A stretch of DNA of 35,546 bases. Origin: Syntrophomonadaceae bacterium (GTDB taxonomy: Bacteria; Bacillota; Dethiobacteria; DTU022). Numbering within the stretch: the stretch's first letter is position 1; each line of letters starts with the position of its first letter. Location of the stretch: contig SKXC01000033.1 in the NCBI GenBank assembly GCA_007128625.1, positions 1 to 35,546 of the forward strand, written 5' to 3'. Both the position numbers and the translations under genes were made by a program. Shown one piece after another: positions 11,025-13,594 of the stretch. Under the pieces are notes generated by a model that worked only from the letters and a program-made list of their open reading frames with translations, was not told where the DNA came from and ran no database searches.

Positions 11025-11417
11025 GTGGTGGGTAAAGTGATCTATAAAGTGTTTCTTAGCCTAAAAAATGCATGCAATGGCCTGAAATACTGTTTTTTAA
11101 CTCAACGCAACATGGTTATTCATGCAGTTATTGGTACTATAGTCCTGGTTGCGGCATTATTATTGCAAGTTTCATTAACCGGTATGCTTTTGTTGTTTAC
11201 GGCAATTATGTTTGTTTTAACCGCGGAAGCTTTTAATACAGCCCTGGAGCAGACGATAGATCTGATTACCAGGGAACGTAACCTGCTAGCTCAGAATGCT
11301 AAAGATATTTCTTCCGGGGCTGTTCTGCTTACCTCATTATTTGCTGTTGTGATTGGCCTGTTCATACTTGGTCCGCCTTTATGGTTTTTATTTAAAGAAT
11401 TATTTCTATCTCATTAG
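11025..11417 (+). CDS. dgkA: Diacylglycerol/undecaprenol kinase family protein (GTG start)
   Basis: AxNGLKYCFLTQRNMVIHA, AEAFNTALEQTIDLIT..., AKDISSGAVLLTS; between ybeY and cdd. Confidence 0.93.
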   Translation: MVGKVIYKVFLSLKNACNGLKYCFLTQRNMVIHAVIGTIVLVAALLLQVSLTGMLLLFTAIMFVLTAEAFNTALEQTIDLITRERNLLAQNAKDISSGAVLLTSLFAVVIGLFILGPPLWFLFKELFLSH

Positions 11418-11582: not shown

Positions 11583-12413
11583 ATGAATACCGGGGCTCTC
11601 CTAACAACAGCTAGTGCAGCCAGGATGAGAGCTTATGCTCCCTATTCAGGCAACCTGGTTGGAGCCGCCTTGCTTACTGAAGAAGGCGCAATTATTACAG
11701 GCGCCAATATCGAAAATGCTTCTTACGGTATAACAACCTGTGCAGAAAGAGTAGCGATTATGACGGCGGTACATGCCGGACACCAAAAGTTTAAAAGCAT
11801 TGCTGTTTTTTCTGATAATTCACCGCCAGTAACCCCCTGTGGAGCGTGTCGGCAGGTATTGTGGGAATTGGCCGGAAATATTGAAGTGATCATGGGAAAT
11901 TGTAATAATGAAGAAACAAAAATTATGCCCTTACAGGACTTACTACCGGAACCTTACGGGATTAATAAATGGATTGGTAATTCACCTGATCAAAAATTAC
12001 TTGGTAAAGAAGAAATGTGGCGTTTGCCGGTATTGTTTCACCCGATTGGCTATACGGCAAATAATTACCATGAACCCGGGATGATTCCTGAAAACTATAA
12101 AGAACTATTGTCACAGGTTATAATTAACCCGGAGATGGAAGACGGGCTTTACCGTCTGGAAGAAGAAGAGAGAATTAACATTATATCCTATTTACATCTG
12201 GCCGGAGGTTATCGGTTGAAAGACAGGGCCAGGGGCAGAGGTAATGAAGTATATGGTGTTTTTGCCTGTCGTACTCCCTTAAGACCTAATTCAATAGCGC
12301 AAACTACTGTTCAGCTTGTGGATAGAAAGGGGAATATACTTACTGTTAAAGGATTGGATCTGATTAACAGAACCCCTGTTCTTGATATTAAGACAGTTCT
12401 ACCGGGCAGGTAG
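11583..12413 (+). CDS. Cytidine deaminase fused to C-terminal TrmO/TsaA (UPF0066)-like domain
   Basis: N-terminal half: YAPYSGNLVGAALL, NIENASYGITTCAERVAI (CAE), PCGACRQVL. C-terminal half: LFHPIGYTAN...GNEVYGVFACRTPLRPNSIAQTTVQLV...VKGLDLINRTPVLDIKTVLP, matching the TrmO GVFATRSxxRPNPIG...LDxxdGTPVxDIKPYLP pattern. One uninterrupted 276-codon ORF. Confidence 0.88.
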   Translation: MNTGALLTTASAARMRAYAPYSGNLVGAALLTEEGAIITGANIENASYGITTCAERVAIMTAVHAGHQKFKSIAVFSDNSPPVTPCGACRQVLWELAGNIEVIMGNCNNEETKIMPLQDLLPEPYGINKWIGNSPDQKLLGKEEMWRLPVLFHPIGYTANNYHEPGMIPENYKELLSQVIINPEMEDGLYRLEEEERINIISYLHLAGGYRLKDRARGRGNEVYGVFACRTPLRPNSIAQTTVQLVDRKGNILTVKGLDLINRTPVLDIKTVLPGR

Positions 12414-12418
12414 AACAA

Positions 12419-12619
12419 TCATAATAGGTAAGTATAGATAATCGAAGCTGAGAAAACAATCAGGATCAAAGCGATCAGGGTCGCCAGACCTGAAAGAGGA
12501 ATAATGATTACTCCTCCGAAAAGGAGTGCAAAAAAAATAAGGTTGACAATCAAAGCTTTTCTGCTGGGCTTTTTTGTCTGTTCATTATTTTGGTTTCCCG
12601 TTCCAGTTCTCTGGTTCAT
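12419..12619 (-). CDS. Small hypothetical membrane protein (two TM segments)
   Basis: 66 aa: polar N-terminus then LIVNLIFFALLFGGVIIIPLSGLATLIALILIVFSASIIYTYLL; ggggtaac upstream of ATG. Opposite strand to neighbours. Confidence 0.5.
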   Translation of the reverse strand: MNQRTGTGNQNNEQTKKPSRKALIVNLIFFALLFGGVIIIPLSGLATLIALILIVFSASIIYTYLL

Positions 12620-12706: not shown

Positions 12707-13594
12707 ATGCACCGTTCAGGATTTGTGGCTCTAATTGGCAGGCCCAATGTTGGGAAATCAACCCTGCTCAATGCTCTGGTAGGCGAAAAAGTAGCCATAA
12801 TTTCTAAATGCCCCCAGACTACGCGAAATCAAATCCGTGCTGTTTTAACCAGGCCAGAAGAACAGATAATTTTTATTGATACACCCGGTTTGCATAAACC
12901 AAAACATAAGCTTGGATCAGCAATGGTTAAAAAAGCAAGAAATACGATGCAGGAAGTTGACCTGGTCTGTTTTATAGTAGAAGCCAACCATCCGCCGGGT
13001 GCTGGTGATGGCCATATTGCAGAACTATTAAACACAGTCGCCTGCCCTGTTTTTTTAATTCTAAACAAAATTGACCTGGTTACACCGGATAAGTATGTTA
13101 CCTACAGCGAACTCTATAAAGCCAAGCATCCATTTAAAGCGCATTTTCCCGTATCGGCACTGCAGAAAATTGATCTTGAACCTTTGATTGAAGCTGCTGT
13201 AGCTGTTCTTCCGGAAGGACCCCGCTATTACCCACCTGATATGGTGACTGATCAGCCTGAACGGTTTATCGCTGCGGAAATAATTCGTGAAAAAATTATC
13301 CCTTTAACCAGGCAGGAGATTCCTTTTTCTATAGCCGTGGTTATTGAAGAAATGAAATTTCGTAATGACAGCGATTTGCTTGATATTCGTGCTGAAATTT
13401 TTGTCGAGAGGAAATCACAGGTCGGCATTGTTGTGGGGAGGGGTGGTTCTTTACTTAAAGAAGTTGGGATTGAAGCCCGCAGGGAACTGGAAGCTTTGTT
13501 TGGACACCATATTCATCTTGATATACGGGTAAAAGTTAAACGCGAATGGCGCAACCATGAAGAGGACTTGCGCCGCCTTGGTTATAGTGATTAA
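12707..13594 (+). CDS. era: GTPase Era
   Basis: GRPNVGKSTLLN, DTPGLHKP, NKIDLV, C-terminal KH domain (VGRGGSLLKEVGIEARRELE). Confidence 0.97.
   Translation: MHRSGFVALIGRPNVGKSTLLNALVGEKVAIISKCPQTTRNQIRAVLTRPEEQIIFIDTPGLHKPKHKLGSAMVKKARNTMQEVDLVCFIVEANHPPGAGDGHIAELLNTVACPVFLILNKIDLVTPDKYVTYSELYKAKHPFKAHFPVSALQKIDLEPLIEAAVAVLPEGPRYYPPDMVTDQPERFIAAEIIREKIIPLTRQEIPFSIAVVIEEMKFRNDSDLLDIRAEIFVERKSQVGIVVGRGGSLLKEVGIEARRELEALFGHHIHLDIRVKVKREWRNHEEDLRRLGYSD

Follow-up and report, generated by a model that had tools for sequence, protein, structure and literature searches.

A family-wide fusion of a cytidine deaminase with a TrmO-like domain at the cdd locus of Syntrophomonadaceae bacteria

In the present work, we found a gene in which a cytidine deaminase (Cdd) is joined in frame to a domain of the TrmO superfamily, an architecture shared by 38 of the 43 genomes of its own family of uncultured Bacillota (G000-G042) and by 17 of the 18 genera therein. 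On balance, we lean towards an explanation in which a TrmO superfamily domain (UPF0066, class VIII SAM methyltransferases) would have become attached to the cdd gene already present in the family ancestor and the fusion then retained by selection. The N-terminal half would serve as the cell's ordinary cytidine/deoxycytidine deaminase; for the C-terminal half, both SAM binding and continued methyl transfer are probable, the latter to an acceptor that need not be t6A37 of tRNA, with RNA, a nucleoside or another small molecule as equal candidates. Both domain families are known; their pairing, as far as the paper library we searched can show (most subscription journals lie outside it), has not been described.

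The window, i.e. the whole analysed stretch of 35,546 nucleotides, carries the fusion gene on its plus strand (11583..12413) as an ATG-initiated reading frame of 276 codons plus stop that is devoid of internal stop codons. The encoded protein consists of a cytidine deaminase domain (residues 1-127; 11583..11963, +), a variable linker (residues about 128-145; 11964..12017, +) and a TrmO_N/UPF0066-like domain (residues 148-276, or about 150-276; 12024..12410, +). Pfam profiles matched both halves (59 bits for dCMP_cyt_deam_1 and 77.2 bits for PF01980), in agreement with an initial annotation that had read the two domains from this one frame. An alignment of family members revealed that the linker is weakly conserved and differs between relatives in both sequence and length, and its pLDDT stayed below 50 in a full-length AF2 model. 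The initial annotation had also named an assembly error or a stop codon between the domains as a possible pitfall and had called for a search for homologues of the same architecture. Intact homologues occur family-wide, and an assembly artefact can be rejected, given that the same join and an open frame recur in 38 independent genomes; four of these copies are cut by contig ends, either at the gene start (G009, G032) or at the gene end (G026, G040).

The N-terminal half passed the TIGR01354 equivalog cut-off (130.4 bits vs 113.65). Its zinc motifs, C53-A-E55 and P85-C86-G-A-C89, are intact, as had been noted from the sequence, and C53, A54, E55, R56 and P85-C86-xx-C89 were invariant among 38 homologues; herein, C53, C86 and C89 are taken as zinc ligands and E55 as the catalytic residue. 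Besides, the substrate contacts N42 and E44 were conserved in all 37 members covering these columns, and Y125 takes the C-terminal aromatic position. The full-length AF2 model was confident in this half and found its best PDB matches among Bacillus subtilis Cdd structures (including 1jtk). Residues 1-127 thus resemble the tetrameric Bacillus-type Cdd in zinc and catalytic motifs, length and fold, as does the gene in its native place before era, whereas the linker and the second domain are additions. Judged by these features, the half is best taken as a tetrameric-type, ordinary salvage deaminase for cytidine and deoxycytidine. In the window's genome, a draft of 1.76 Mb in 175 contigs with an estimated completeness of 97%, the fusion was the sole Cdd-type match, in line with the expectation that it is the only cdd there; three further deaminase-family matches elsewhere were, by size, TadA-, dCMP-deaminase- and RibD-like. 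At the pocket position 24 (about 11652-11654), where B. subtilis Cdd has Phe24, Phe was found in 34 members and Asn only in the window protein (G000) and its nearest relative, G011, and we therefore rejected this substitution as a family trait.

The gene order ybeY-dgkA-fusion-era-recO is kept across the family, with dgkA (11025..11417, +) and era (12707..13594, +) flanking the fusion in the window, just as the dgkA-cdd-era arrangement had been read initially. An extra gene, read from its sequence as DUF881-like, separates dgkA from the fusion in many members, though not in the window. Two sister-family genomes (G045, G046) encode, at the same place before era, a Cdd of about 145 aa that has no second domain, and the simplest account of this arrangement would be that the TrmO-like domain joined the resident cdd once, in the family ancestor. 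Secondary loss was also observed. In G002, which is a member of the window's genus, the stretch from the DUF881-like gene to era (L217, contig 25, 4663-5001) contains neither the Cdd nor the TrmO part and is contiguous, so that the gene is truly absent. G019 retains, between the DUF881-like gene and era, merely a remnant matching residues 241-272 (L219, contig 53, about 1127-1213); a stand-alone Cdd lies on another contig of this genome, which could also be contamination. Given the loss in G002 and the remnant in G019, neither activity is indispensable. The G016 contig breaks off immediately upstream of era, and the fusion site could not be judged in G001 (era only partly found, with a frame open to 119 codons) and G030 (close era match not found).

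These data bear on the proposal, raised initially, that the pairing marks a deaminase acting on RNA or modified nucleosides, the TrmO-like half bringing RNA to the deaminase and thereby creating a C-to-U editor or a modified-nucleoside deaminase. Two neighbouring genes, ybeY and era, encode proteins that act on rRNA, and this could be counted in its favour. However, cdd adjoins era also in the sister-family genomes that lack the fusion, and the neighbourhood is therefore uninformative. The proposal can further invoke a yeast Cdd relative whose PDB entry (1r5t) bears the title orphan C to U editase, as well as tRNA being the substrate of E. coli TrmO (PMC4132733). Yet, the deaminase half is ordinary, with the equivalog cut-off passed and the active-site residues invariant; it sits at the native cdd place and represents the only Cdd of its genome, and G019, left with a mere remnant of the fusion, has its stand-alone Cdd elsewhere. 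Beyond the pairing of names, nothing supports RNA editing, and we regard it as very improbable.

Outside its own family, the fusion was found in none of the 55 remaining genomes of the class, and in a sample of 399 genomes of the phylum, matches to both halves were restricted to the six members of this family. Searches of plasmid and phage collections returned matches to the Cdd half only, none of them covering 80% of the protein. As the scan across all prokaryotes relied on six exact peptide patterns, the fusion may occur in other phyla as well; where records with the fusion carry a name, they are metagenome-assembled genomes labelled Syntrophomonadaceae bacterium. With respect to TrmO itself, 42 of the 55 class genomes outside the family lacked a PF01980 match, and TrmO activity therefore does not seem to be generally needed in this class. 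In addition, G021 and G022 encode a PRQG-type, i.e. canonical-type, TrmO next to the fusion, which is hence no mere replacement for it.

Counting substitutions after Nei and Gojobori in ten pairs of related species, we obtained dN/dS values of 0.02-0.19 for the TrmO half in all ten pairs. For the Cdd half, eight of the ten pairs gave 0.03-0.19, one was not computable and one, the very close pair L005/L007 with a dS of only 0.07, gave 0.55. The linker usually ranked above the domains, with values of up to 0.41. Both halves are thus under strong purifying selection, with a looser linker in between, and the low ratios imply that both domains are maintained. We also considered a pseudogene or a drifting tail, and rejected it since dN/dS was as low in the TrmO half as in the Cdd half.

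The PF01980 (TrmO_N) match in the C-terminal half spans residues 173-273 and lies above the cut-off of 26.8 bits. When this half was modelled alone, AF2 reached a mean pLDDT of 77 (model residues 69-90 being uncertain), and all ten Foldseek matches with E <0.001 were UPF0066/TrmO structures, the closest being 2nv4 (E 4.4e-9, TM 0.73). In the full-length model, the TrmO half mostly remained below a pLDDT of 60 and was unusable because the aligned sequences were too few; viral contigs scanned to deepen the alignments contributed few relatives. The initial assignment of residues ~150-276 to TrmO is hence corroborated by both profile and fold. However, the TrmO equivalog TIGR00104 (cut-off 93.25) was missed by the two fusion proteins scanned (69.9 for the window protein, 84.9 for G012), whereas five out of five scanned stand-alone relatives passed it.

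Four residues contact SAM in the archaeal member AF0241 (2nv4), namely Gln22, Arg82, Asp111 and Lys122 (Kimura et al., PMC4132733), and correspond to Gln25, Arg92, Asp125 and Lys136 of E. coli TrmO, where R92A and K136A abolished m6t6A formation and Q25A and D125A sharply reduced it (PMC4132733). Aligned to both proteins, the fusion has R230, D259 and K270 as putative counterparts of three of the four (Arg92, Asp125 and Lys136 in E. coli). They are invariant or nearly so, the single exception being a His at R230 in G029. In the column of Gln25 (N171 in the window), whose position is uncertain since the alignment crosses a shortened loop, we counted 29 Asn, six Arg and one Gln among 38 proteins. 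This loop belongs to the region between HPIG and GVFA, which is indeed short and diverged, as had been suspected, with P-x-N-Y replacing the PRQG loop. The RPNSIA motif, by contrast, had been pointed out as a deviation and is present in the window, yet it represents a derived state; RPNP survives in five divergent members, and RPNS is therefore too weak to serve as proof of repurposing. In the window alone, residue 263 is Arg instead of Gly.

The comparison with known systems is similarly mixed. The fused domain has the N-terminal beta-barrel in common with TrmO/YaeB/TsaA (E. coli b0195, P. aeruginosa 7btu), but differs from the E. coli protein in its altered PRQG and RPNP motifs, in the Asn or Arg at the Gln25 column and in the absence of the C-terminal DPRxxY domain, the fusion protein stopping directly after the barrel. 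In E. coli TrmO, this C-terminal domain is likewise required for m6t6A (PMC4132733); it is also missing from archaeal and short bacterial members, including AF0241, a SAM-bound single-domain barrel that resembles the fused domain in this regard, but possesses the PRQG loop and groups with the PRQG type.

In our trees, the fused domains formed one clade (support 100/99) and grouped with a set of twelve proteins that come from other families and likewise lack the PRQG glutamine (98/93 in an 85-row tree, 98/92 in a 63-row tree), although these twelve did not form a clade by themselves. A grouping of the fusion with the PRQG type was rejected (p-AU 0.02), one with the E. coli type was not (p-AU 0.44), leaving room for a tRNA role; with an alignment of 137 columns, the deep placement is provisional. 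The nearest relatives, found in other Bacillota families, differ from the fusion in that their domain stands alone or is partnered by FmdE instead of Cdd. Among the twelve, the open frames of L155, L160, L163 and L169 span 370-376 aa, and three scanned proteins of this type turned out to be TrmO-FmdE-zinc finger fusions; a UPF0066-FmdE architecture had been noted earlier (PMC2954224). Several relatives are located near ABC-type transport genes (names partly read from sequence), and one (G341) lies between genes read as obg and yhbY. The context of the FmdE-fused proteins suggests a role other than that of a t6A methylase. At L184, L189, L192 and L193 (the last by sequence resemblance), a TrmO-like domain is fused to FmdE and a zinc finger beside genes read as transport genes, and the one case of this fusion type scanned with NCBIfam passed the t6A methylase cut-off.

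Taken together, the profile scores, the missing PRQG glutamine and the non-canonical relatives place the C-terminal half in what, by sequence, is a non-canonical and poorly characterised branch of the TrmO superfamily, in keeping with the earlier suggestion that the domain may have been repurposed. Alternatively, the half could simply provide tRNA m6t6A37 methylation in this lineage, its union with cdd being fortuitous and the two halves working independently. It is the only PF01980 protein of the draft genome, where the initial annotation had recommended looking for a separate trmO, it adopts the fold of TrmO, keeps most SAM residues and would be compatible with an E. coli-type affinity in the topology test. 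However, its scores fall below an equivalog cut-off that the stand-alone relatives pass, it lacks the DPRxxY domain and a Gln in the Gln25 column, the many class genomes without TrmO give no sign that the lineage needs m6t6A, and G021 and G022 hold a canonical-type TrmO in addition. We thus consider this explanation unlikely, and t6A37 is not the most likely target of the second domain.

Another serious rival, which we rate as similarly improbable, is that the TrmO-like half constitutes a non-enzymatic SAM-binding or dimerising module that serves to regulate or stabilise the deaminase. In its favour, Cdd of the Bacillus type forms oligomers. Both the missing Gln contact and the loss of RPNP would fit such a module, as would the dimeric state of TrmO proteins, which share a SAM site between subunits (PMC4132733). 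Against this stand R230, D259 and K270, all of which are kept, and the equally low dN/dS in this half and in the deaminase. Catalysis may have been lost, because the Gln25 column is occupied by Asn or Arg and loss of Gln25 sharply lowers the activity of the E. coli enzyme. Within our favoured account of a probable SAM methyltransferase appended to an ordinary Cdd, the fusion, its conservation, the selection on both halves, the fold and the three retained SAM-contact residues are observed, while catalysis by either half, SAM binding and any coupling between the halves are inferred. An active methyltransferase of new specificity coupled to cytidine deamination appears possible, if rather doubtful. 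If true, one polypeptide would unite nucleoside salvage with the methylation of a nucleoside, RNA or another small molecule. More generally, NCBIfam-style naming would label UPF0066 superfamily domains as tRNA t6A methyltransferases. The Cdd fusion and the FmdE-fused relatives suggest a different function for part of UPF0066, much as an m6t6A role has been doubted for archaeal members (PMC4132733), and a partner of known function that is kept family-wide offers a concrete handle on such an alternative role.

Apart from the fusion itself, a 66-codon open reading frame with a hydrophobic stretch lies between the fusion gene and era on the minus strand (12419-12619), convergent to the fusion, and can be recognised at the corresponding position in several relatives, among them G002 and a sister-family genome.
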